In this document: one piece after another, positions 24,291-62,200 of the stretch
Layout of the letters: every line of letters begins with the position of its first letter
How positions within the stretch are numbered: position 1 is the stretch's first letter
From: Opitutaceae bacterium
GTDB taxonomy: Bacteria > Verrucomicrobiota > Verrucomicrobiia > Opitutales > Opitutaceae
Reading direction: 5' to 3'
Assembly (NCBI GenBank): GCA_016795565.1
Contig: JAEUGW010000054.1
Location: forward strand, 62,001 to 126,000
Length of the DNA: 64,000 nt
Notes under the pieces: model-generated
Told to the model about the DNA's origin: nothing
Seen by the model: only the letters and a program-made list of their open reading frames with translations
The model's database searches: none
Made by a program: the position numbers and the translations under genes

Positions 24291-26789
24291 TCATTTTCCA
24301 AGGGAGACGAGATTCGCGAAGAGCCGGTAGGCACCGGGGACGCCGGCGGGCAACTGGCGGAAAAAGCCGAGGCCGGTGTAAACGTAGTGTCCCTTGCCGT
24401 GGCGCGCGACGAGGAGGCTGCTCCGCAGCGCGGCTTCGCCCGGGTCGCTCATGCCGAGGAGGGCGGCATAGTGCGCCTCGTCCCATTTGCTGGGGAAATA
24501 CGCGCCGCGCTCCTGCACCCAGCCGTCAAAGTCGGCGGCGCGGATCTGGTTCGGCGTGTTGAGCGCCGCGTGATCGGGCGCGAGCAGAGTGACGGGCGCG
24601 GTCTCGTCGGTGACGCGCAGCGCCGGGGCCGGGCCCTCGATGGAGAGGGCGTAGGGTCCGAGCGTCGTGGCGAGCAGGCCGTTGGGGCGGTTGTATTGCG
24701 CGATGACGGTGCCGCCCTGCTCGACCCAGGCGAGCAGGCCGGGGAAGGCGTCCTTCAGGTCGGTGCGCTCGTTGAAGGCGCGCACGCCGATGACGACGGC
24801 GTCGAGGCCCCGGAGTTTTTCGGGCGTGAGGTCGGCGCCGGTGAGGCGGTGGACGACATAACCCATCTGCTCGATGCACTCGGCGACGCTGTCGCCGGCA
24901 CCCGGCAGGTAGCCGACGGTGCGGCCCTTGGTGGCCAGCGGGAAGCTGGCGAGGCGGGCACGCGCCGGGGGCTGGAGCAACTGGACCGGGAGGTGGGCGT
25001 AGCGCAGTTCCTCGCGCTGGTTGGAATAGTCTTGGCCACCGACGGTGGCCACGGCGCGGAGGTGTCCGCTGCCGCCCGAGGAGGGAGAAGTGACAGTGAA
25101 AGTGAGAGTGGTTTTATCTCCAGCGGCGGCGAGGCGGAAGTCCTGTGCGGCGGGGCTGACCTTCCAGCCGGCGGGCACATCGAGGCGGAGCACGCCTTGG
25201 CTGCCGGCGCGCGCGGCCGTGATCTCGATGGTCGCGGTCTTGGTTGCGCCGGGTTCGACCAGGTAGATCTCCGAGTTCAGCGCGAGCGAGACGGGCGGGA
25301 TGACATCGAGATGCTGGCGGCCCGCGTCCGGGGTTTGCGGGACGGGTTCGTCGGGCAGGAGGAGGGTCTGGCCGCCGATGATGAAGGCGTGGGTCAGCGG
25401 CACGGCGGGCGGATTTACCGGTCGGCCGATCAGGGTGGCATCATCCACCCGGGCGATGCCCGCCGCGCCGTCGGCGCGCAGCCAGTAGGGCTGCGTGAGC
25501 GGCGCGTTGGTGAGGAGCACGCCGTTCAGGTTGTCCTCGAGCGCCTGGCCGGCGACGAGCTCGCGGGCGAGCTCGACCGAGCCTTTCAAGGCCGGGCTGC
25601 GGGTGAATGCGTAGCGGACCGGAATGTTGCGAGCGGTGAGGCTGATCGCGTAACGAATCTGGACCGTCTCGCCGGGGACGATCTCGGCCCGGGACACGGT
25701 GGTTTCGACCTTGAGACCGAGGCAGGAGAGGATGATGCGGTCGAGTTGGGCGAGCTTGTCGGTGACGAGCGGATCGGCCGGGAGGGCGGCGAGCTTGGGG
25801 CGGAGCGCGAGCAGGGCCGGCACGGAGGCGGCGGGATCGTCGGAGTTGAACTGCGCGATCGCGGTGGCGGCGAGTTCACCGATTTCCGCGCCGCCGGAAT
25901 AACGCGCCCAGGTGGTGTCCACGCCATCCATCAGGTCGCTGGTCGCCGCGTCACCGGCCAGGAGCATGAAACTCTGCTCATTGGGGCCGGTGCGGGCGCG
26001 GCTGGCGGCGCCGGCGAGGCCTTGCGTCTGGTGCATGGAGCGGCTGCGGGCGGCGATGGTGCCGAATTCCTGGCCGCTGACGGGGTCCGTGCCGCCGATG
26101 TCCTGCTTGAAGACCGGGCCGTTGAGCGGGCCCGGACCGGCGGAGCCGAAGCGGAAGGAATTCCAAAGCACGCGCTTCGGCTGCCAGACGGTCAGTCCCT
26201 GTGCGAGCTGTTCGGGATAGGCTTTGGGGTCGCCGGCGAGCTTGAAAGCCTCGACGGCGAGGATGGCCGACGCCGTGTGGTGGCCATGTCCGCCGCTGCC
26301 GGGCGGGATGGGGAAGCGGGTGACGATGACATCGGGCCGGAACTGGCGGATGACGCGCACCACGTCGCCGAGCACGGCGTCGCGATCCCAGAACTTCAAC
26401 GTCTCCTCGGGCGTCTTGGAGTAGCCGAAGTCAATGGCGCGGGTGAAGAACTGGCGGCCATGGTCGAGGTGGCGGGCGGCGAGGAGTTCCTGGGTGCGGA
26501 GGACGCCGAGTTTTTCATCGAAGTCCTTGCCGAGCTCGTTCTGCCCGCCGTCGCCGCGGGTTAGCGAGAGGTAGGCGGCGCGGTAGCCGCGGCCGAGGGA
26601 GAGCCAGGTGATGAGTTCGGTGTTTTCGTCGTCGGGGTGCGCACCGATGTGCAGGACGGTGCCGGTGGTGGCGAGGCTGCGGAGCTCCTGCCGGATCTCG
26701 GCGGGAGCGAGGGGGGTGAAGGCGGCGGGGGCGGCGGTGGCGGCAGCAGCGAGCAGGAGAAGCGCGCGGGGCCAGAAGGTGAAAGCCAT
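24291..26789 (-). CDS. Exported large PIG-L family deacetylase with C-terminal ThuA-like domain
   Basis: An 832-residue protein with a signal peptide (RALLLLAAAATAAPAA), then a PIG-L/LmbE domain with IGAHPDDENTELI and SGGHGHHTAS metal motifs (residues about 45-230). A long beta-rich middle region (about 370-620) follows, then a Rossmann-like C-terminal part (GLDAVVIGVRAFNERTDLK, GGTVIAQYNRPNG) resembling ThuA-type domains. The family removes acetyl groups from amino sugars; location outside the cytoplasm argues against a direct BshB role. The start at 26789 is set by the signal peptide. Confidence 0.85.
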   Translation of the reverse strand: MAFTFWPRALLLLAAAATAAPAAFTPLAPAEIRQELRSLATTGTVLHIGAHPDDENTELITWLSLGRGYRAAYLSLTRGDGGQNELGKDFDEKLGVLRTQELLAARHLDHGRQFFTRAIDFGYSKTPEETLKFWDRDAVLGDVVRVIRQFRPDVIVTRFPIPPGSGGHGHHTASAILAVEAFKLAGDPKAYPEQLAQGLTVWQPKRVLWNSFRFGSAGPGPLNGPVFKQDIGGTDPVSGQEFGTIAARSRSMHQTQGLAGAASRARTGPNEQSFMLLAGDAATSDLMDGVDTTWARYSGGAEIGELAATAIAQFNSDDPAASVPALLALRPKLAALPADPLVTDKLAQLDRIILSCLGLKVETTVSRAEIVPGETVQIRYAISLTARNIPVRYAFTRSPALKGSVELARELVAGQALEDNLNGVLLTNAPLTQPYWLRADGAAGIARVDDATLIGRPVNPPAVPLTHAFIIGGQTLLLPDEPVPQTPDAGRQHLDVIPPVSLALNSEIYLVEPGATKTATIEITAARAGSQGVLRLDVPAGWKVSPAAQDFRLAAAGDKTTLTFTVTSPSSGGSGHLRAVATVGGQDYSNQREELRYAHLPVQLLQPPARARLASFPLATKGRTVGYLPGAGDSVAECIEQMGYVVHRLTGADLTPEKLRGLDAVVIGVRAFNERTDLKDAFPGLLAWVEQGGTVIAQYNRPNGLLATTLGPYALSIEGPAPALRVTDETAPVTLLAPDHAALNTPNQIRAADFDGWVQERGAYFPSKWDEAHYAALLGMSDPGEAALRSSLLVARHGKGHYVYTGLGFFRQLPAGVPGAYRLFANLVSLGK

Positions 26790-30543: not shown

Positions 30544-31647
30544 TCAGAGCGCACGGCTGGACTTCATGGCGTAGGGGCGGACGCGCCGCACCAACTCGAC
30601 GTGGAATTGGGTGGCGTGGCTCCAAGCGGCGAAATGACCGCCGCCCTCGATGCGCACCAACTCCTTGTGTGGCGCTTTGATCGAGTTGTAATACTCCTCC
30701 GCCAGCGTCGGGGGCGTCACATGGTCGTCAGTGCCTTGGAACAGGAAGACCGGAACTTGGAAATCGAAGCCAAGGGTCGACAAATTCGTGCTCAGGATTT
30801 TCTGATAGAGGGACCAGGTGGGCACCGCCATGAATCCCCGCATGCGGTTCCACTCGTCGCCTAGCGTGTAGTTGGGTGGAGGCGACAGGAAGCTGCGCTG
30901 TAGTTCCGCCATGGCGGTCGAGTCAGCCCGCGCCTGGTAACGCTGGGCGCACTGGAAAAAGCCATTAGCCTGCTGCCGGCTGGAAAAGGGCGGCGGGCCG
31001 ATGGCCGCCAGCTCACGTTGGCTCCGGGCGTCGCCGTGCGCCTTGGCCAGTTCAACCAAGCGTGCATATTCCAGCGCCACGCTGCGGGGCAGATCGCTCG
31101 CCTGCCCGGTGCCGACAAAAGCGTGGAAGAGTTCCGGCCGACTTTTCACCATTCTCGTCCCGAGGATGGATCCGAAGGAATGTCCGAGCAGGATGATCTT
31201 ATCCTGACCGAGTCGCTGGTGGAGGTGCTCGGCCACCTCGATGCCATCCTGCGCCATGCGCTCGATGTTCATGGTCCCCGCGATCCCGGGTCCGGTGGCC
31301 GCCAGAGTCTTGCCGGCACCCCGCTCATCCCACAGCACGACGGTGAAGTCCTTTTCCCACGCGGCGAACAGGCGCGTCACCGGCAGCCATGTTCCGCCCG
31401 GCCCGCCATGGACGCAGAGCAACACCGGGTTGTTCCGATCCTGGCCGCGGACCTGGATCCACTGCTTGATGCCGCCAATCTCGATGTAGCCGGCTTCGTC
31501 GATGCCGCCGGCCGAGGTGATTGCGAACGTCTTTTCATTCGCGTGCTGGCGGATCGTGCGCAGCACGAGCAATGCCGCGATGCCGGCCGCGATCACCACA
31601 AGAAGGGTGAGGATGACGTTCCGGGCGATTTTCAATGAACGGCGCAT
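30544..31647 (-). CDS. Membrane-anchored alpha/beta hydrolase (proline iminopeptidase-like)
   Basis: Residues 8-30 form a membrane helix (ARNVILTLLVVIAAGIAALLV). The hydrolase domain has the oxyanion motif HGGPGGTW, WDERGAGKT, the nucleophile elbow GHSFGSILG (Ser), and a later acid and His in FQGTDDHVTPP and EGGGHFAAW. HGGPGG plus DERGAG marks the prolyl aminopeptidase-like group. A peptide or amide substrate at the membrane is inferred. It stands alone, 180 bases upstream of the VOC gene. Confidence 0.85.
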   Translation of the reverse strand: MRRSLKIARNVILTLLVVIAAGIAALLVLRTIRQHANEKTFAITSAGGIDEAGYIEIGGIKQWIQVRGQDRNNPVLLCVHGGPGGTWLPVTRLFAAWEKDFTVVLWDERGAGKTLAATGPGIAGTMNIERMAQDGIEVAEHLHQRLGQDKIILLGHSFGSILGTRMVKSRPELFHAFVGTGQASDLPRSVALEYARLVELAKAHGDARSQRELAAIGPPPFSSRQQANGFFQCAQRYQARADSTAMAELQRSFLSPPPNYTLGDEWNRMRGFMAVPTWSLYQKILSTNLSTLGFDFQVPVFLFQGTDDHVTPPTLAEEYYNSIKAPHKELVRIEGGGHFAAWSHATQFHVELVRRVRPYAMKSSRAL

Positions 31648-31751
31648 GGGATTTGGGGTTCGGAGGTGGAGCCGGCGATTTTGGCGGAATCAGGTGCGAT
31701 GAATACCCGGTTGGCGCTGTGCTACTAGCAGCTTCTCGCAGGAATACGCAA

Positions 31752-33263
31752 TCATAGTGCGGGTTGCACGGCCGTCGTGCCGACAGCCAGTTTTTTGGAG
31801 CATGGGCGGTGGGCGCGGAGGCTGAGAACGAGGGCGACCACGATGAACACGGTCGCGGCCGAAAAGGTCATGCGGGTGGCCAAAGCCACGGTGTCCGGGC
31901 CGGGTGGAGCCGCATCCCTGGTGGCCAAGGCGAAGACGCCGCCCAAGAGCGACACGCCGGTGATGAGACCGAGATTTCTGGAGAGGTTCAGCAAACCGGA
32001 GATCAGGCCGCGTTGATCAGACGCGGCACTGTGCATCACGGCCGTGTTGTTGGCCGTCTGAAACAGCGAGTAGCCGGCTGTCATGACGGCGACCGGGATC
32101 AAGTAGCCGGCCATGCCGCAGCATTGCGGCAGCAGCGCCAGTGCGAGGCAGCCGGCTCCGGCTCCGATCAGCCCAAAAACCGTCGTCCGGCGCGTTCCGA
32201 TCCACCAGGCGGCCGGCCAGACCGGCCACGAGCGCGGCCATCAGCGGCCCAACAGACAGCGCGAGGCCCATCTTTCCTGGGGGCACGGCCAGCGTTTGCG
32301 CAAGATAGAAGGGCCCCACAACTAGGGTGGACATCATCACGGCCGCCACCAACAGGCTCATAGCGAGACCCGAGCGCAGGGCGTCGGCTTCCAGCAATTC
32401 CATGCGCAACAGCGGCGATGCGGTCCTTTTCTGCATTCGCAGAAAGAAGACCATTCCGCTGGCCGCAAGCCCGAGAAGCGCAAGTTTCCGACACCGAAGC
32501 CGTCATGCTGACGTGTAAATCCGAGCGCGTAAGCCGCCACGCTCAGGGCTAGCAGCACCATGCCAGATATATCGAAGTCGCCCAACCGGGCGGTCCGGGC
32601 CCCGCGATCAGCCGGCAGATGGCAGAGCAGAAGCGCAAAGGCGCCGAGCCCGAGCGGGACATTGACGAGAAATATCGATGGCCAGCCGAACGCCGAGATA
32701 AGCAGCCCGCCGAGCGCCGGACCGAGGGCGGTGCCGATCGCGGACATGCTGCCCAGCAGTCCCATCGCCCGGCCGGTTTGGTCCTTCGCGGTCAGATCTC
32801 CGATGAGGGCAACGCTGAGGGCCATCATTGTAGCCGCGCCGATTCCCTGGATAAACCGGATGGCGATCAGCCAGCCCAGGTCCGGGGCGAATGCGCAGGC
32901 TCCTGCGGTGGTTGTGAACAAGGCGATCCCGGCCAGCAACAGCCGCCGCCGGCCCACGATATCGGCCAGTTGGCCCACACAAACAATCAGGGACGTGATT
33001 GCCAGGACGAAGGAGATGACGGTCCACTGTGCCGCCTGGGTCGAAGCCTGGAAGGCGCTCGTGAGGGTCGGCAGTGCAACATTCACGATGCTGGTATTGA
33101 GCGTGGACAAGAGGACGGCCAGCGAGAGGCCCACGAGGGCGAGCGTGGGGGAGCGCCGTTCTGAACCGGTTGGATCGGGGAGCTGTGGCGCGGAGTGCGT
33201 ATCGTTGGCGGGGTTCACTTCGGCAGCATAGTCGGTTCCAAACCAAGGCGGAAGGCGCGGCAT
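31752..33263 (-). pseudogene. MFS drug-efflux gene (DHA2/EmrB-QacA type) broken by two frameshifts
   Basis: Three consecutive reading frames together make one transporter. The first (from ATG 33263) has LSTLNTSIVNVALPTL, VCVGQLADIVGRRRLL and helices up to GFGVGNLRF. Near 32478-32488 one base is missing and the next frame goes on with ALLGLAASGMVFFL to GRLVDR. Near 32196-32206 a second shift leads to GTRRTTVFGLIGAGAG and the last helices. The second shift fits loss of 5 bases from a GATCG tandem. The gene is divergent from a LysR regulator. Assembly error cannot be excluded for either site. Confidence 0.8.
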
Positions 33264-33269
33264 CTGCAC

Positions 33270-33286
33270 TTTGATAGTGCATCAAA
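33270..33286. promoter_or_regulatory. LysR-type operator
   Basis: TTTGAT-AGTGC-ATCAAA is a perfect 6-base dyad with a 5-base spacer, matching the T-N11-A pattern of LysR boxes. It lies between the MFS start and the regulator start (33318), the usual site for a divergent LysR regulator to control both genes. Confidence 0.65.
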
Positions 33287-33317
33287 CGCCATGTCTGGCA
33301 GGCTCGCGCCAGCGCCC

Positions 33318-34229
33318 ATGACCCACCCGGACCTGAACTTGCTCGTCGCGTTGGACGCCTTGCTGGCGGAGGGAAGCGTCGCGCGGGCCGCCAAGCGACT
33401 TCGCCTGAGCCCGTCGGCCATGAGCCGGACCTTGGCGCGGCTCCGCGCGGCCACGGGGGATCCCCTGCTGGTTCGCGCGGGCCGCGGCCTGGTTTATTCC
33501 CCACGCGCGCTCGAACTCCGGGCGGAAGTAGGGCACGTGGTGGGCCAAGCCATGCGGATGCTGGATCCGGTGGAGCAACCGATCGTGAAGGAGGTGAAGC
33601 GAACATTCACCCTGCGGACCAGCGACGGCTTTGTGGAGAATTTCGGTTCGAGGCTCCTGGCGCGAATTGCCGCGACGGCCCCGGGCATCACGATCCATTT
33701 CGTGCAGAAGGTCACCCGGGACGGCGCCCTGCTCCGCGATGGAACGGTGGATATGGAGACGGGGGTGGTCGGCACGACACTTAGTCCCGAGATTCGCACC
33801 CAGGCGCTTTTCCGCGACCGGCTTGTAGGTGTGGTGCGCAAAGGCCACCCGCTCAGTCGCGGAAAGATGACGGCGGCGCGCTACCTGGCAGCGGATCACA
33901 TCCTCGTCTTTCGAGGAGAAGCCGAGAAGGGCCCGGTCGATGCTGATCTGGCAGCGCAGGGGATGGAGCGGAAGATCGGAACCATGCTCACCGGTTTTTC
34001 GGCAGCCCTGACCCTTGCCCGCTCGACCGACTTGGTCGCGACCGTGCCCGAACGTCACACGGCGGATCTCCGGACCGGACTGCACACTTTTGCGCTGCCG
34101 TTCCGGACGCGGGAGCTGACGGTTTCATTGCTATGGCATCCGCGCATGGACGCCGATCCGGCCCACCGATGGCTGCGAGATCAGATCCGGCAGGCCTGCG
34201 CCTCGGCGGTGCCTGCGCGGTGGAGATAG
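33318..34229 (+). CDS. LysR family transcriptional regulator
   Basis: The 303-residue regulator has an N-terminal winged helix (LNLLVALDALLAEGSVARAAKRLRLSPSAMSRTLARL) and a substrate-binding domain starting near residue 90 (TFTLRTSDGFVENFG). The start at 33318 (MTHPDLNLL) gives the family N-terminus; an upstream in-frame start would run through the operator. It faces the broken MFS gene and probably controlled it. The inducer is unknown. Confidence 0.92.
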   Translation: MTHPDLNLLVALDALLAEGSVARAAKRLRLSPSAMSRTLARLRAATGDPLLVRAGRGLVYSPRALELRAEVGHVVGQAMRMLDPVEQPIVKEVKRTFTLRTSDGFVENFGSRLLARIAATAPGITIHFVQKVTRDGALLRDGTVDMETGVVGTTLSPEIRTQALFRDRLVGVVRKGHPLSRGKMTAARYLAADHILVFRGEAEKGPVDADLAAQGMERKIGTMLTGFSAALTLARSTDLVATVPERHTADLRTGLHTFALPFRTRELTVSLLWHPRMDADPAHRWLRDQIRQACASAVPARWR

Positions 34230-34305: not shown

Positions 34306-34431
34306 AAAGAAAAACGCCGGCTCGAGGGCCGGCGTTGGAGAACGAGAAAGATTACGAGAAAGAGAACGATTGCTCAGCGGTATTCCTCGTTGGTGTTGGC
34401 GTTCCGCCTTCGCCGAGGCTACGGACGGCAG
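34306..34431 (-). repeat. rng 3'-end remnant, copy C
   Basis: Read on the minus strand: a TCCG-GCGAAGG hairpin module, then codons for NANTNEEYR and a TGA stop (34374-34403), the T/C-rich stretch CAATCGTTCTCTTTCTCGTA and a terminator hairpin with arms CGCCGGC and GCCGGCG followed by a T run (34306-34336). The peptide equals the last nine residues of RNase G encoded at 36675, with one synonymous change and a different stop codon. Confidence 0.8.
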
Positions 34432-34443
34432 GGGAGGCGATGG

Positions 34444-34700
34444 TCACGACGTGGCGAAGGCGATGAGAGGGGCGTAGTCGCCCTGGTCGGCGGATTGGAG
34501 GGCGGCGATGTATTGCCTGCGCGCGAGGCCGGGTTGGACGAGGTCGAGGCTCGCGCCCCAGGTGAGCGCGAGCTGGCCGCGCGCGGCGACGACGATGTCG
34601 GCCAGCAGGCGGGCGTGCCGGCCGTTGCCGTTCGGCCAGGGATGGATCACGACCATGCGGTGGTGCAGGCGCACGGCGATCTCGACGGGCGGACAAGCCG
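34444..34700 (-). pseudogene. Fragment of a Fic-domain mobile mystery protein B
   Basis: About 84 codons encode PPVEIAVRLHHRMVVIHP, the Fic motif HPWPNGNGRHAR and the end QYIAALQSADQGDYAPLIAF, as in the C-terminal half of mobile mystery protein B. The N-terminal half is missing: upstream codons in this frame match nothing, and another frame (about 34700-34850) carries an unrelated remnant ending VALIAPDRR. It therefore appears to be a decayed Fic gene next to an intact one. Confidence 0.65.
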
Positions 34701-34891
34701 TAGCCACTGCTGCGACGATCGGGAGCGATGAGGGCGACGGTGCGATCATCCAGACCCTGCTCTTGCACGTAGCGATCAAGCCCGGCCGAGGGGTCTTCGG
34801 GCAGGGGCTCCGTGCGCGGGAGAAAGACGACGAGGAGAGGCGGCGCTGGAGCCTAGCCGCGCAAGCGTGGCAGACTTGGTCGGCGCGGGTG

Positions 34892-36028
34892 TCACAAAGA
34901 CGGCGGGGACTTGAGCAGGTATTTGGTGCTGCGGCCACCGGCGGGGCCGGCGGCCAAGAGACCGGCGGCGAGCAGCGCTTGGATGTCGCGCAGGGCGGTG
35001 TCGAGCGAGCACTCCACGAGTTTGGCGTAGCGCGAGGTCGAAAGCTCCGGGTCGGGGCCGTCGAGCAGGGCGTTGATCACGAGGCGCTGCCGGTCGCTAA
35101 TCGTGGTCGCCTGGACATGGTTGATCCAATCCCAAGTGGCGGCTTTGCGGATGACGCCGGCCGAGATAGCCTCGGCGCGTTGCAGGGCGCGGTCGAGGCA
35201 GGCGAGGAACCACGCAAGCCAGGGGGTGATGTCCGTCGTTCCTTTCTGACCCCGCTCCAGCGCCTGATAGTATTGCTTTTTTTCCGCCTCGATCTGCGCC
35301 GACATGCTGTAGAAGCGCAGGGCCGAACCGTCGGCGCGCGCCAGCGCCAGATCGGCGATGGCGCGGCTGACGCGCCCGTTGCCATCTTGGAACGGGTGGA
35401 TGGTGACAAACCAGAAGTGGGCGATGCCGGCGCGCAACACCGGGTCGGTTCCGTCGGGGGTCTCGAACCATCGGAGAAAGTGGTCCACTTCTCCGGGGAT
35501 ACGGCCGGCGGCTGGGGCCTCGAAGTGGATGTTTTTACGGCGAATCCGATCGCGGCTGATCGGGCCAGAGACGACCTGCATCGGATCCATGTCGGGCGTG
35601 CGCCACTGTCCGACCAAGATACGCTGCATGCCGCTGCGACCGCCCGGAAAAAGCGACGACTGCCAGGCCAGCAGCCGTTCGGTCGTCAATGGTTCGGCGT
35701 ATTTCTGGGTGGCATCGAGCATCATTTCGACGGCACCCTCGACGTAGCGATCCTTCGCCGCGAGGTCGGCGGAGGGCAGACCGAGGCGGCGGGAGATCGA
35801 GGAGCGCACGGTGGACGGATCGAACTTGGTGCCTTCGATGGCGCTCGACTGGATGATCTCGGTGGTGAGGCTTTCCAGCGCAGCCTCCGAGCGGAAGCGA
35901 ACCCCCAGTCCCTTCATGTGGCCCAGCAGATGGCCTTGGCGATGACGGACGCCCACCAGAGACGAGGTCAACTCGGCCTCGTTCCAGGTCAGATTTGGCC
36001 AGGTCGGGCTTTGGTGGATGTAGGCCAT
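34892..36028 (-). CDS. Fic family protein with N-terminal inhibitory helix and C-terminal winged helix
   Basis: This 378-residue protein has a DUF4172-like N-terminus with the inhibitory motif SSAIEG (S-x-x-x-E-G, near residue 62), the catalytic HPFQDGNGRVSR (near residue 212) and a C-terminal helix-turn-helix (DRQRLVINALLDG, SLDTALRDIQALLAAGL). Fic enzymes transfer AMP or similar groups to target proteins; the motif here marks a class II enzyme held off by its own helix. The ATG at 36028 is preferred to a TTG two codons upstream. A large palindrome lies 24 bases upstream, and the winged helix suggests autoregulation. Confidence 0.9.
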   Translation of the reverse strand: MAYIHQSPTWPNLTWNEAELTSSLVGVRHRQGHLLGHMKGLGVRFRSEAALESLTTEIIQSSAIEGTKFDPSTVRSSISRRLGLPSADLAAKDRYVEGAVEMMLDATQKYAEPLTTERLLAWQSSLFPGGRSGMQRILVGQWRTPDMDPMQVVSGPISRDRIRRKNIHFEAPAAGRIPGEVDHFLRWFETPDGTDPVLRAGIAHFWFVTIHPFQDGNGRVSRAIADLALARADGSALRFYSMSAQIEAEKKQYYQALERGQKGTTDITPWLAWFLACLDRALQRAEAISAGVIRKAATWDWINHVQATTISDRQRLVINALLDGPDPELSTSRYAKLVECSLDTALRDIQALLAAGLLAAGPAGGRSTKYLLKSPPSL

Positions 36029-36051
36029 GGCCAATTAATTGAGCAATGTTT

Positions 36052-36112
36052 GCGGCGAATACAAGTGTTATTCACCGCATAGAATGCGGTGAATAACAAA
36101 GGTATTCGCCGC
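36052..36112. promoter_or_regulatory. 61-base palindromic operator ahead of the Fic gene
   Basis: The site is GCGGCGAATAC, 3 bases, TGTTATTCACCGCAT, 3 bases, ATGCGGTGAATAACA, 3 bases, GTATTCGCCGC. Both the outer 11-base arms and the inner 15-base arms are exact inverted repeats about 36082. Each arm contains the half-site GCGG(T/C)GAATA, so there are four half-sites. It lies just upstream of the Fic start and probably binds the Fic winged helix or another dimeric repressor. Confidence 0.75.
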
Positions 36113-36156
36113 AAGGTGGTGGAGATGCGAAGGGCGGTTGAGCCAGGACGAGGCGG

Positions 36157-36298
36157 AAAAGAAAACGCCCGGCGGTGAGGCCGGGCGTTTGGGAGAAGGA
36201 GAAGGATAACGAGAAAGAGAACGATTGCTTAGCGATACTCTTCGTTGGTGTTCGCGTTCCTCCTTCGCCAAGGCTTCGGCGGACAAGTGATGATCTTG
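36157..36298 (-). repeat. rng 3'-end remnant, copy B
   Basis: Minus strand: codons for K-I-I (36288-36297), a 29-base TTGTCCGCCGAAGCC/GGCGAAGG module (36259-36287), codons for NANTNEEYR and TAA (36229-36258), the same T/C-rich stretch as rng, and a terminator with arms AACGCCCGGC and GCCGGGCGTT (36165-36190). The hairpin module is inserted inside what would be the RNase G tail. Confidence 0.8.
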
Positions 36299-36308
36299 GC
36301 CAAACAAT

Positions 36309-36332
36309 AGCGCCGGTCGCATGACCGGCGCT
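36309..36332 (-). terminator. Terminator-like hairpin
   Basis: AGCGCCGGTC and GACCGGCGCT form a perfect 10-base stem with loop GCAT. On the minus strand it is followed by ATTGTTTGG, a weak T-rich tail. It stands between two rng remnants with no gene of its own. Confidence 0.5.
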
Positions 36333-36337
36333 GAAGT

Positions 36338-36476
36338 TAGAGCACTTCAAATTGAAGTATGGCCGGAACGGTTTCGGGTGGGCGCCGGTTTCCATACCGG
36401 CGCCGGCGAGCGCACCATGTCGCCGATATGGAAATCGGCGACCACCTGTGGCTACACCTTTTTTGGAACTGCTCTA
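36338..36476. mobile_element. MITE-like element with two complementary-loop hairpins
   Basis: The ends are inverted repeats: TAGAGCACTTC (36338-36348) and GAACTGCTCTA (36466-36476), one mismatch. Inside are two perfect hairpins, GGCGCCGGT-TTCCAT-ACCGGCGCC (36381-36404) and GTCGCCGAT-ATGGAA-ATCGGCGAC (36419-36442). The two loops are exact reverse complements. There is no coding capacity. It is 139 bases, the size of a non-autonomous element; no transposase is in the window. Confidence 0.6.
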
Positions 36477-36477
36477 G

Positions 36478-36513
36478 CTAGATCGCCATGGCGGCAGAGC
36501 CGCCTCGCGATGA
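36478..36513. repeat. GTCATCGCGAGG-type repeat, partial copy 3
   Basis: TAGATCGCCATGGCGGCAGA followed by GCCGCCTCGCGATGAC matches the ends of the repeats at 22265 and 24183, but the centre is shortened. It directly abuts the stop codon of the rng remnant D. Confidence 0.6.
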
Positions 36514-36516
36514 CAA

Positions 36517-36588
36517 TCAACGATACTCCTCGTTCGTGTTCGCGTTGATGATCTTGATCCACCTTCGCCGAGCCTACGGCGGACAAGA
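36517..36588 (-). repeat. rng 3'-end remnant, copy D
   Basis: Minus strand: a TTGTCCGCCGTAGGC/CGGCGAAGG module (36560-36588) followed by codons for [13 protein letters not shown] and TGA. Four or more synonymous differences from the true rng end are present while the peptide is unchanged. The T/C stretch and terminator found after the other copies are missing and replaced by the GTCATCGCGAGG repeat. Confidence 0.75.
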
Positions 36589-36602
36589 GTTCTCGACGTT
36601 CT

Positions 36603-36635
36603 AAAAGAAAACGCCCGGCGGTTAGGCCGAGCGTT
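36603..36635 (-). terminator. Rho-independent terminator of rng
   Basis: Minus strand: AACGCTCGGC and GCCGGGCGTT pair (one T-G pair) around CTAACC, followed by TTTCTTTT. It lies 39 bases past the rng stop codon, after the T/C-rich stretch shared with copies B and C. Confidence 0.8.
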
Positions 36636-36674
36636 TGGGAGAACGAGAAGGATAACGAGAAAGAGAACGATTGC

Positions 36675-38420
36675 TTAGCGATATTCCTCGTTGGTGTTGG
36701 CGTTAATAATTTTGAAGTTTTCGACGTGGTAGTTGGGGTCGGCGCGGAAGGCCAGTTTCACGCCGTAGGTCTTCTCGACGCGGACGAGCAGCTCGGAGTC
36801 TTCGGAGCGCAGGCGTTCCAGAATGGACGGGTGCACGTGGACGCGGAGGGAGTATTCCTTGCCGTCCTTGCGGGCTTGGAGACGGCGGGCGACGGACGAG
36901 AGCTTGCGTTGCAGCTCGACGGACATCGTCGTGGCGGACTTCACCATCGCGCGGCCGCGGCAATAGGGGCAGCTGGTGTAGAGGTTGGCCGAGAGCGACT
37001 CCTGCTGGCGCTGGCGGGTCATCTGCATGATGCCGAGCGAGCTGATGGGCAGGATGTGGGTCTTGGCTTTGTCCTCCGACATGAGCTCGACCATCTTGTC
37101 GAAGACGGCGTTGCGGTGGCGGCGCTCCTTCATGTCGATGAAGTCCATGATCACGAGGCCGCCGATGTTGCGGAGCCGGATCTGGCGCGCGATCTCGACC
37201 GCGGCCTCCATGTTGACCTGGAAGATGGTGTTCTTCTCGTCGCCGGAGCGGCTCTTGTGGGAGCCGGTGTTGACGTCGATGGAGATGAGGGCCTCGGTCT
37301 CGTCGATCACGATCTCGCCGCCGGAGGGCAGGGGGACGCGGCGCTGGAAGGTCTGCTCAATCTGGCGCTCGATGTTGTAGCGTTCGAAGACTGGGATGGA
37401 GTCCTTGTAGTGCGCGATCTTGCCCTTGGAGCGGGAGGAGATCTGGCCGACGTATTCCTGCGTGCGCTTGTAGTCGTCCTCGTTGTCCACGAGCACGCGG
37501 TCGATGTCCTCGGTGAGGAAGTCGCGCACGGTGCGCTCGACGATGTCGGGCTCTTGGTAGAGGCAGGCGGGGGCGCGGTCGGTCTCCATCTTGCGCTGGA
37601 TCTCGGTCCACTTGGCGAGGAGGAGGTGGAGGTCGCGGACGAAGTAGCGGGGCTTCTTGCCCTCGCCGGCGGTGCGGACGATGACGCCCATGCCCTCGGG
37701 GATGGTGAGCTCGTTGATGAGGGTCTTGAGGCGCTTGCGCTCGGCGGGGTCCTCGATCTTGCGGGAGATGCCGCAGCCGTCGGAGAACGGGGTGAGGATG
37801 AGGTAGCGGCCGGGCAGGGAGAGGTTGGTCGTGGTGCGCGGGCCCTTGGTGCCGATGGGGCCCTTGGTGACCTGGATGACGATCTCGGAGCCCGGCGGGT
37901 AGAGGCCGGGGATGTCCTTCACGGTGGGCTCGGCCTTGCGCGGGCCGGCATCCTTCTTCTTGTTGACGCGGACGACCTCGACGGAGGAGTCGGCGGCGGC
38001 GGGGAGCATGTCCCAGTAGTGGAGGAAGGCGTTCTTGTTGTAGCCGATGTCCACGAAGGCGGCCTTGAGGCCGGGGTCGAGGTTCTTGACGCGGCCCTTG
38101 TAGATGCCGCCGACCATGCGGGAGTCGGACTCGCGCTCGATCTCGAAGCGGTCGAGGGTGCCGTCCACGAGGAGCGCGACGCGCTTCTCGAGGGGCTCGG
38201 AGTTGATGACGAGTTCGCGGAAGGTGCCCTTTTCCTTCCGGAAGATGCTCAGGATTTTCTGGAGGATGGGCCGGTCGGCGGCGCGTTCCTTGGAATCCTT
38301 GCGCAGCTGCTCGGCGGTAAGGGGCTCCGTGTGCTTCTGGGGCGGGGGCTGCTGAAGTTCTTCTTCATGGCGTGAGGCGGCGTCCGCAGGGGAGCCGGAG
38401 TTGGTGGGCTGGTCGTTCAT
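36675..38420 (-). CDS. rng: Ribonuclease G/E
   Basis: This 581-residue endonuclease cuts single-stranded AU-rich RNA in rRNA and tRNA maturation and mRNA decay. Residues 1-70 are polar and unstructured. The S1 domain follows ([20 protein letters not shown]). The catalytic DNase I-like part has [10 protein letters not shown] and [14 protein letters not shown] with the metal-binding Asp residues. CPYCRGR is the zinc-link. The C-terminus NANTNEEYR is copied three times downstream. The start MNDQPTN at 38420 is chosen; an extension to 38501 is possible. It lies 104 bases downstream of rodA. Confidence 0.95.
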
Positions 38421-38524
38421 GGTGGGGTTGGTCCCGGGTGGTTGTGACGGGGCGCCCGTGTCCAGCAGGCTGTGTGCAGGAGATTCCGGCAAAACGGTCA
38501 ATATGGCGTGGCAGGAGACCCATG

Positions 38525-59268: not shown

Positions 59269-62200
59269 GCGCCTGACCGACCACGCGGCGCGCGAGCGCT
59301 TCCGCGATGAATGGGACCGGAACTTTGCCGTGAGCGCGAACGCGGGCTCCGGCAAGACCACGGCCATCTCCGAGCGGCTGGCGGCGCTGGCGCTGCGCGA
59401 GGGCGGCGCGGAGCAACTGCGGAAAACCGCGATCGTGACCTTCACCAAGAAGGCCGCGGCCCAGATCGGCCAGCGCGCGCGGGCCGTGCTCGTGCGACGG
59501 CTGGCGGAGGCGGGGCGGACGGACCTGGCGCCGCTCGATCACCTGGAACGCGCGTTCTTCGGCACGATCCACAGCTTCTGCCTGCTGCTGGCGCAACGCT
59601 ACGGCCAGGCACTCGGGCTGAACCTCAATCCGGCGGTGATCGAGGGCGCGGACATGGAGGAGGCGCTGTGGGAGGAGTTCCTGGAGCAGGATGCGATGCA
59701 GTTCACCACGCTCGCGCCGGCGCAGATCGAGGCATTTTTGCGGCATGCGCCGCTCGATTCGATCTTCGGGCTCGCGCGCGACCTCGACCGCGGCACGGCC
59801 GTGCGGCTGCATGCGACGAAGATCGCCGCAGCGCCCCCGGGGCCGTCCCACGGCGCGCTGTCCATGATCCTCGCGGCAACCAGCAAGGGGAGGGGCGTGG
59901 AACCGCTGAAACACAACCAAGCCCAGGCCGAGGAATGGCGCCGGCGTTTCCGGGAGGAGCGCGGCTTCCTGCCGTTGCCGAAGCCGCAGGGCACGGCGGC
60001 AAACATCGAGGAGCTTTATGCGGCCTACCTGGCGCCGGTGAAGGCCTGGCTGGCGGAGGCCGGCGCCGTGCTGGCGGGCGAACTCGCGCTGCGCTACCGC
60101 GCGTGGCGCTTTGAGCGCGGCGTGCAGACCTATGCGGATCAGGTGGAGGCCGCGTTCGAGGTGCTGCACGACGCGGCGACCCTCGAGCGCATCCGTGCCG
60201 AGGGCTGGCGCATCGTGCTCGACGAGGCGCAGGACACGGATCCGCAGCAATTCGAGGTGCTGGTCGAGATCACGCGGCCGGTGGGCGCGCCGTTGGGCAC
60301 CTGGCCGGCGCGGGGCGGCGCCGGGCCGCGGCCGGGGCATTTCTGCATGGTCGGCGACGGGCAGCAGTCGATCTACAGCTCGCGGGCGGACGTGCGGAAT
60401 TTCCAGAGGCACCTCGAGGCATTTGCCTGCGGGGACGGCGGCGAGCGGATAACCTTCGACGTGACTTTCCGCGCGCCGCACGCGGTGATCGGGCTCCTGA
60501 ATGCCACGCTGCCGGCGGCCTTCGGGCCGGCCCGGGAACACAATGGCGGGTTGCCGCCGGCGGACGGGGCCCCGGCTCCGCGGCTGCAGGTTCACTACGA
60601 GGCGCTGGCGGCCGGGCCGCGGAACGAGCCGGGCGCGGCCAGCGTGCTGCCGCTGATTCCGGCGGCCCCCAAAACCAAGGTCGAGATCCGGCTGGCGGGG
60701 GAGGTGCGGCAGGTCGCCGCGTGGCTGCGCGAAAAAGGGCCGGCCGGGGTGGGGGCGCGGCATTGGGGCGAGGTATGCATCCTCGCGCCGCGCAATGAGT
60801 GGCTGGTCACGGCGCGCAAGGAACTCGAGGCGGCCGGTTTGAAGACGGCCCTGCAAATGCGGAAGAACCGCAACGGCGACAATCCCGCCTATGCCTGGCT
60901 GACCGGTCTGCTGGCGGCAGTCTGCGACCCGGAAAACACTTTTGAATGGGTGGGGGTGTTGCGCGAGGTTTTCACCGTCAGCGACGCCTTGATCGCCGCC
61001 GAGCTCGGGCCGGACCGGAAATTCAACTGGGAGACGCCGGAGAAACATGCGGCGCCGCTGCGGACGGCGCTGGAGGTGCTGCGGCCCTTTGTCAGTCGCG
61101 TCGAAGCCGAGGGCGAGCCCTTGGAGCGGTTCGTGCACGACTTGGTGCAGGCAACGGCGTTGCAGGAGAAGGCCCGGCTGATTGACCCGAGCGGAGCGCT
61201 GAACAGTGAATTGGAGCGGCTGCTGGCGCACGCGGCGGAACTCGGTCTCGAAGGGGCGGGGCCGCGCGCCTGGCTGGGAGAATTGCTGGCCGGACTGGAG
61301 GCCGGTCGGCCCGCCGGGAAACCGAGTGACGATGCGATCAACCTGCTGACGTCGCATTCGGCCAAGGGTCTGGAGTGGCCGGTGGTCATCCCCATCGGGT
61401 TGTGGCGCGAGATTGGCAAGCGCGACGAGACCGGCCTGCGGCTGTTGCCTGATGCGGCCGGGGTGCAACGGGTGTATTTTGACGGCGCCAGCCTGCCGGC
61501 GACGATGAAGGAATCACGCGAGCGCGAGCGGCTGCGCGAACTGGTGCGGTTGCTCTATGTGACGCTGACGCGGGCACGTCGCGTGCTCGTGCTGCCGATG
61601 GGGGAGACGGCCGACGAGGGAAGTTTTCTGGATTTGTGGGGAGCGGACCTGACGAAGCTGCCCGGGGTGGCGGAGACCCGCTTTGCATTGCCGACGGCCC
61701 GGCCTGAAACGACGCGGCGGGCACCGATGCAGATCGCTGGCGCGACGGGTGGCGCGCGGGTGGATTTCCCGCAGCGGTTGCTGCCCCACCAACTGGCGCA
61801 AAAGCCGGATACGGTGCGCGCGCTTCGGCACGAATCGGGGGAGGGCGAACCGGTGCCGACCGGACGCGAGGATCCGATCGAATATGGCCTGTGGTGGCAC
61901 GAAACCATGGAGTTCCTTCCCTGGCACGCAGACGAAGTGGAGCTTGAAAGCTATCTGAAGGACCGGCTGGCGGCCGCAGCGAAACAGGACTTTGCGCCGC
62001 GGGGCGAGAGCGAGCTCGCGAAGTTGCGGGCGAGTGGGTTGTGGCGGGAATTGCGTTCGCCGCGCTGGCGGATTTTAACCGAGGTCAGTGTCGTGGCGCC
62101 ACTGCGACAGGCCGGTTGGGTGGATGGGGTCATCGATCTGGTGGCGCAGGACGAGGCGGGAGGAAGGCTGTTGGTCGTCGATTGGAAAACCAACCGCCGA

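Follow-up and report, generated by a model that had tools for sequence, protein, structure and literature searches.

In the 64,000-nucleotide stretch of DNA analyzed here (hereafter, the window; positions 62,001 to 126,000 of contig JAEUGW010000054.1 in the Opitutaceae assembly GCA_016795565.1), the rng gene, which encodes a protein of the RNase G/E family, is followed by three additional copies of its own 3' end. These copies, designated D, B, and C (the resident end being A), are best explained as discarded former ends of rng. The mechanism that we favor, with a probability that we put at about even, is one-sided homologous import, in which incoming DNA would replace the end of the gene and a short palindrome would mark the second junction, rather than insertion of a dedicated element with an attachment (att) site in rng. 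The displaced-end footprint is not specific for rng and is seen at several unrelated genes of the same genome, referred to below as G000.

The preliminary description of the window listed four copies of the codons for NANTNEEYR with a stop codon, and all four were found, on the minus strand and nowhere else in G000 (A at 36675-36704, D at 36517-36546, B and C as in Table 1). The degenerate pattern NAxT(N/G/S/D)EEYR plus stop has exactly 4 matches in this 3.5-Mb genome, all behind its single full-length rng, and the reversed-pattern control has none; the norm among 252 genomes of the family is a single copy. The relatives used for comparison belong to Lacunisphaera, Opitutus, and Oleiharenicola, and most of them are metagenome-assembled genomes. 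Copy D turned out to be longer than initially described, with HVEN codons beyond a 30-nt palindrome; copy B has KII codons beyond its palindrome, and in copy C the palindrome abuts the tail directly. Copies A and B differ in 3 codons and A and C in 2, including the stop (2 of 30 nt), whereas A and D show 8 synonymous and 1 non-synonymous differences over 14 codons. Over 30 nt each, the closest rng ends are those of G010 for B and G004 for C (1 difference each), G013, G017, and G007 for D (1 each), and G018 for A (2 differences). Each copy is thus closest to the rng of a different species, and the copies do not group with each other. This result, together with the nearly complete restriction of the differences to synonymous sites, bears out the earlier proposal that the copies come from rng genes under selection and not from a recent local duplication. 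Drift after a local tandem duplication of the rng end would account for adjacent copies on the same strand and for the similarity of A and C, but it predicts neither almost exclusively synonymous changes in copies that are not under selection, nor displaced and resident ends from different lineages (G142, see below), nor exchanges of codons that take several steps, such as CGC to AGA; we regard it as very unlikely.

Displaced rng ends were detected in approximately 7 of 122 Opitutaceae rng loci (three ends in G000, and also in G007, G029, G142, G152, G173, and L253). Every one of them lies downstream of rng on the same strand; none was found upstream or on the opposite strand in the 80 loci scanned. 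Their edges vary from 9 to ~53 codons, and the insert between the stop codon and the displaced end is only ~40 bp in some loci (in L253 and G142, the stop-to-stop distance is 111 to 112 bp). The tails of G152 and G069 are located on two contigs, possibly owing to strain mixture or assembly branching, and have therefore been given little weight. In the 11 resident/displaced pairs, 94 codon differences are synonymous and 9 are non-synonymous, which argues that each member of a pair has a history as a functional gene end.

The direction of change is best seen in G142. Compared to its two closest genus-mates, the body of its rng is 95% identical, the displaced end 88 to 90%, and the resident end 74 to 76%. 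The resident end is closest (88%) to that of G003, a member of another genus, with codons that are distinctly richer in A+T than those in the remainder of the gene. This comparison directly shows a resident end that is foreign and a displaced end that is native (genus-typical); the end of rng was thus replaced and the native end pushed downstream. The few informative sites turn from native to foreign near codon -30, and the displaced copy begins at codon -24. L253 shows the same pattern, in the order stop, ~10 nt, palindrome, displaced end; for this locus and for the SDR gene described below, the direction is less strongly established. Within the genus, the last ~100 codons of rng show raised synonymous divergence, and the 3' end of the adjoining rodA does not. 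A separate observation concerns G012, G004, G013, and G009, where the G+C content at third codon positions (GC3) drops sharply over the last 30 codons of rng (z from -3.7 to -6.8) with no displaced copy detected; these drops suggest additional replaced ends.

A scan of the palindromes of G000 revealed the same layout at three unrelated genes: a gene with an AT-richer recoded 3' end, its stop codon, a spacer, a palindrome, and the GC-rich old 3' end. They encode an SDR of the 3-ketoacyl-ACP reductase family, assigned by family search (22 of 24 tail residues and 56 of 75 nt identical), and a LuxR-type regulator (22 identical residues, 53 of 69 nt) and a TIM-barrel protein (11 of 14 residues, 30 of 45 nt), the latter two labels being read from the sequence. 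In such scans around palindromes, protein-level comparison proved more sensitive than the nucleotide-level one. Beyond its first displaced end, the SDR gene of G000 has another one at a distance of 1.4 kb. The orthologs in G007 and G020 have displaced ends of their own behind a palindrome, and the edges differ among the three genomes (25, 17, and 9 codons). The foreign tract of the G000 SDR gene extends over ~62 codons, where identity to G004 falls from 0.92 to ~0.7, and the codon switch from CGC to AGA mentioned above is found here. A stop-anchored scan that covered 1.22 Mb, or approximately one-third, of G000 again detected rng, the SDR gene, and the TIM-barrel gene, as well as an amidohydrolase gene (C27:842, minus strand, L395) with a ~35-codon old end located behind a 600-bp insert that has no palindrome. 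The two small opposite-strand genes in this insert look like a toxin-antitoxin pair; an NCBIfam search with them gave no match. The shuffled-partner control yielded nothing comparable, save for one paralog match. High-scoring tandem paralogs in the stop-anchored scan (scores 137, 120, 92, and 90) look like whole neighboring genes rather than displaced ends and were set aside.

Under one-sided import, donor DNA from another bacterium or an element would carry the 3' part of an rng homolog followed by a terminator, a palindrome, or a Fic gene. It would recombine with the resident rng by homology on one side, and its non-homologous end would be joined within the 3' end of the resident gene. As a result, rng would gain a complete foreign 3' end, and its last 9 to 17 native codons would be pushed downstream; three such rounds would produce the stack A-D-B-C. 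Uptake might proceed by transformation or a similar route, followed by homology-facilitated illegitimate recombination, and the second junction could be fixed by the palindrome, through a hairpin or a cut by a REP (repetitive extragenic palindromic element) transposase. Two features expected of such recombination are found: the rng of G142 and the SDR gene of G000 are mosaics whose foreign tract is homologous on one side, and the second junction lacks extended homology, with a palindrome or cargo meeting the native tail at differing points. One-sided import predicts a foreign tract that is longer than the displaced copy, and this is the case for the SDR gene (~62 versus 25 codons) and probably for G142. 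Foreign resident ends, displaced native ends no longer than the foreign tract, variable edges, the absence of recombinases, and the arbitrary nature of the genes and cargo would all be accounted for by this single scheme.

The palindrome at these junctions is 24 to 30 nt long, is related to CCGCCGTAGCCTTGGCGAAGGCGG or CAGCCATAGCCTTGGCGACGGCTG, and has dozens of matches per genome. It occurs within 150 nt of the rng stop codon in 4 of the 7 displaced-end loci and in none of the 115 others (122 loci; hypergeometric P = 4e-6), which ties it to the non-homologous edge in most cases. In classical REPs, GTAG is located at the foot of the hairpin; here, it lies inside the palindrome. Matches to the Y1 transposase were found in all 8 genomes searched, with five Y1_Tnp matches in G000. 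These facts bear on a different scheme, in which a REP-associated Y1 transposase makes small circles that consist of a gene 3' end and a REP and enter the homologous gene through a single crossover, much like the circular intermediates that were proposed for rhs and would explain fragments of variable length (PMC2935791). The palindrome often abuts the displaced copy, the short stop-to-stop inserts (~70 to 160 bp) fit small circles, and TnpA-REP is able to cut and rejoin single-stranded REP DNA (PMC8266576). However, the displaced copy should then equal or exceed the foreign tract in length, the opposite of what is seen at the SDR gene and probably in G142; the internal position of GTAG differs from that in classical REPs, and a homology of 30 to 75 nt is short for RecA. 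We consider this scheme improbable. Apart from gene ends, REP-like palindromes apparently lie in frame inside a coiled-coil-type coding sequence of G000 (C33:7745, L148; C33:8924, L156). Similar palindromic elements are known within genes of Rickettsia.

Several observations weigh against one-sided import. In 10 of the 11 pairs, the resident end is richer in A+T than its displaced partner (overall GC3 of 0.63 for resident versus 0.84 for displaced ends), which is not explained by import alone and would fit mobile elements carrying gene ends: a shift in a single direction is unlike what random donors from a GC-rich family would produce, so that the donors may be AT-rich mobile elements. In L253 and at the LuxR gene, the foreign tract and the displaced copy share the same edge, as they would also after an att-type crossover. 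The rng loci of G029, G152, and G173 and the amidohydrolase gene have no palindrome at the edge. The placement of the G000 copies among relatives, over 30 to 50 nt, is weak.

The leading alternative is that of integrative elements that used gene 3' ends as attachment sites and carried their own synonymously diverged copies of these ends, their interiors and recombinases having since been lost to leave attR fossils with a palindrome or small cargo. The e14 element leaves the same kind of footprint in icdC, a displaced 165-bp end of icd in which only 2 of the 12 changes are amino acid replacements (PMC11148124). The resident ends are consistently AT-rich, as is usual for mobile DNA, and the cargo between the displaced and resident ends includes Fic, HTH, and AAA-type genes. 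On the other hand, neither tyrosine nor serine recombinases (PF00589 and PF00239) had matches near rng in any displaced-end genome searched, a set that did not include that of L253; the degraded PF00589 matches on the rng contig of G029 are ~70 kb away. Moreover, the displaced edges vary across species at one and the same gene, for both rng and SDR; several inserts, such as those in L253 and G142, are far too small for an element; and the imported tract at SDR exceeds the displaced copy. Such elements therefore appear unlikely, though less so than the circles discussed above. The earlier proposal of repeated integration that restores the end of rng thus stands in part: the end does appear to have been restored by incoming DNA, with displacement of the old one, as in G142, and repeatedly so, but an element dedicated to the rng 3' end is not supported, given the lack of recombinases, variable edges, ~40-bp inserts, and unrelated target genes.

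It is also possible, if only as a tentative proposal, that Opitutaceae harbor a previously undescribed process in which ordinary genes receive a synonymously recoded, AT-richer 3' end in exchange for their own. Such a process would be marked by the REP-like palindrome and perhaps driven by its Y1 transposase, would deposit the former end behind the palindrome, and would recur at rng and an SDR gene in different species.

The 3' end of rng also appears to be a site of Tn7-like insertion. In G017, an apparently complete Tn7-like transposon (contig C63, ~1-24555; L290 and L291) is located directly behind rng, which is at 24569. It encodes TnsA-, TnsB-, and TnsC-type proteins, two TniQ/TnsD proteins (PF15978, 7.7e-38), and restriction-type cargo; of these, TnsA matched below the cut-off, whereas TnsB, with no Pfam match, and TnsC were assigned by gene order and sequence. 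Its end repeats, GACATTAATG, begin 12 nt past the rng stop codon, and G013 has a solo end at the same position. Similar repeat arrays follow the rng stop in ~20 other Opitutaceae loci by a by-eye count (e.g., L209, L208, L257, L267, L247, G095, G103, and G154). There are at least four kinds of short direct-repeat arrays (including GACATTAAT.., GGTTAATTCTGTTTT.., and GGTAGAAATCACGAGGAGT..) within the first 75 nt, starting ~10 nt past the stop, and they seem to be like the transposase-binding arrays of Tn7-like ends or scars thereof. Together with the G017 transposon, these arrays make the rng 3' end look like a TnsD-type attachment site; in a large survey of Tn7 target selectors, the main text contains none of the words "rng," "RNase G," and "ribonuclease." As a direct source of the displaced ends, transposition of this kind (TnsABC-TnsD) has very little probability and was rejected for G000. 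Tn7-type elements insert beyond the stop codon, without disrupting the coding end, and are thus unable on their own to displace coding tails; no tail in G000 adjoins such repeats, TniQ was not found in that genome, and tnsABC-tniQ/tnsD genes with end arrays at the locus were found in G017 only. Tn7-like insertion may explain why the spot behind rng is so busy, but not the displaced ends.

The preliminary description also pointed to a pyrimidine (T/C) stretch and terminator shared by copies B and C. The sharing is real and extends to A (36637-36674, with B at 36192-36228 and C at 34335-34373), but this stretch, ATCGTTCTC(G/T)TTCTCNTAATC, is a dispersed element with 85 matches in G000 (0 in the control), often in inverted pairs ~60 bp apart, and possibly represents a termination-related element of 3' untranslated regions (UTRs). 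Being dispersed genome-wide, the T/C stretch and terminator carry no information on the common origin of the copies, and the shared stretch was rejected as a sign of it.

The suggestion that the Fic gene of the window (Table 1) is cargo remains plausible. Fic genes also adjoin rng in G007, G018, and G099; a stretch of DNA behind rng in G099 is 75% identical to that of the Fic gene of G000, and G018 has an intact gene of the mobile mystery protein B type in this position. The junction at copy C, in the order Fic fragment, palindrome, rng tail, is common to G000 and G007. Nothing resembling the island was found in the phage collection, and the plasmid records contained only distant RNase G/E homologs with less than 60% identity. 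The block of LysR, MFS, and alpha-beta hydrolase genes at 30544-34229 of the window also adjoins rng in G101, a representative of another genus, in inverted orientation relative to G000; G101 was rejected as a simple pre-insertion site on account of this inversion. Between displaced ends D and B, at 36300-36475, there is an inverted repeat, TAGAGCAGTTCC..GAAGTGCTCTA, similar to miniature inverted-repeat transposable elements.

Table 1. Resident and displaced rng ends of the window and the features next to them
Feature	Positions	Strand	Basis or remarks
rng (RNase G/E family), resident gene, with copy A as its 3' end (36675-36704)	36675..38501	-	Open reading frame of 608 aa; GC3 z = -2.8 over last 30 codons (AT-leaning)
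3' UTR of resident rng: pyrimidine (T/C) stretch and terminator hairpin	36606..36674	-	Sequence
Displaced end D, outer piece ACGTCGAGAACT (HVEN codons)	36588..36599	-	By-eye alignment to rng
30-nt REP-like palindrome inside displaced end D, CTTGTCCGCCGTAGGCTCGGCGAAGGTGGA	36558..36587	-	Zero mismatches; genomic set n = 29 versus 3 in control
Displaced rng end D, starting with (F/I), and stop	36517..36557	-	Last 12 codons and stop identical to displaced copy of G007
Displaced end B, outer piece AAGATCATCA (KII codons)	36288..36298	-	Sequence
REP-like palindrome inside displaced end B	36259..36287	-	Zero mismatches
Displaced rng end B and stop, followed by T/C stretch and terminator	36229..36258	-	Sequence/pattern match
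DUF4172-Fic protein, 380 aa, HPFQDGNGR motif; cargo between B and C	34892..36034	-	Pfam DUF4172, 4.8e-28; Fic, 1.4e-15
Truncated remnant of a second Fic gene (mobile mystery protein B type), adjoining copy C	34444..34938	-	TIGR02613, 8.8e-29, profile positions 107-185 only, below curated cut-off
REP-like palindrome abutting displaced end C, GTCCGTAGCCTCGGCGAAGGCGG straight before AACGCC	34404..34426	-	Sequence
Displaced rng end C and stop, followed by T/C stretch and terminator	34374..34403	-	Sequence/pattern match
LysR-type regulator, first gene past the displaced ends	33195..34229	+	Pfam LysR_substrate, HTH_1

If one-sided import is correct, the displaced ends are fossils of import events that are normally invisible, preserved here at housekeeping genes that experience no toxin-type selection. 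Gene 3' ends would be replaced across genera with the protein unchanged, generating mosaic genes and false signals of fast synonymous evolution. The palindrome at the non-homologous junction makes the resolution of one-sided recombination accessible to testing. Involvement of a REP transposase, if confirmed, would hint at a role for a class of domesticated transposases of as yet unclear function.

Among known systems, icd with e14 shares the recoded resident 3' end, the native end displaced downstream in the same orientation, and mostly synonymous differences; it differs in having a recombinase within the element and one fixed crossover core, whereas here no integrase was found nearby, edges vary, inserts are as short as ~110 bp, several unrelated genes are affected, and a palindrome is present at most edges. 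The likeness to REPs with their associated transposases (RAYTs) and to short palindromic elements within genes lies in a short (24 to 30 nt), dispersed palindrome, some copies of which are apparently in frame, and in the presence of Y1 transposase genes. Within the limits of our literature check, we know of no description of REPs located between a gene and a displaced copy of its end. Integrase-less hot spots of horizontal gene transfer next to core genes (Oliveira et al. 2017, PMC5635113) likewise combine accessory gene turnover beside a core gene with an adjoining end that appears to recombine more than usual, but they involve double homologous crossovers at the flanking core genes, which leave no displaced ends. 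For the C-terminal tips of rhs, displacement by homologous recombination has been described (PMC2935791), and a comparable model of sequential displacement has been published for the immunity arrays of type VI secretion systems (PMC5361080). Those systems exchange polymorphic toxin tips or immunity genes, whereas here the housekeeping ends encode nearly the same peptide, so that no benefit of swapping is apparent; in both cases, however, the conserved upstream part serves as the anchor for homologous recombination, and former ends of varying length pile up downstream.

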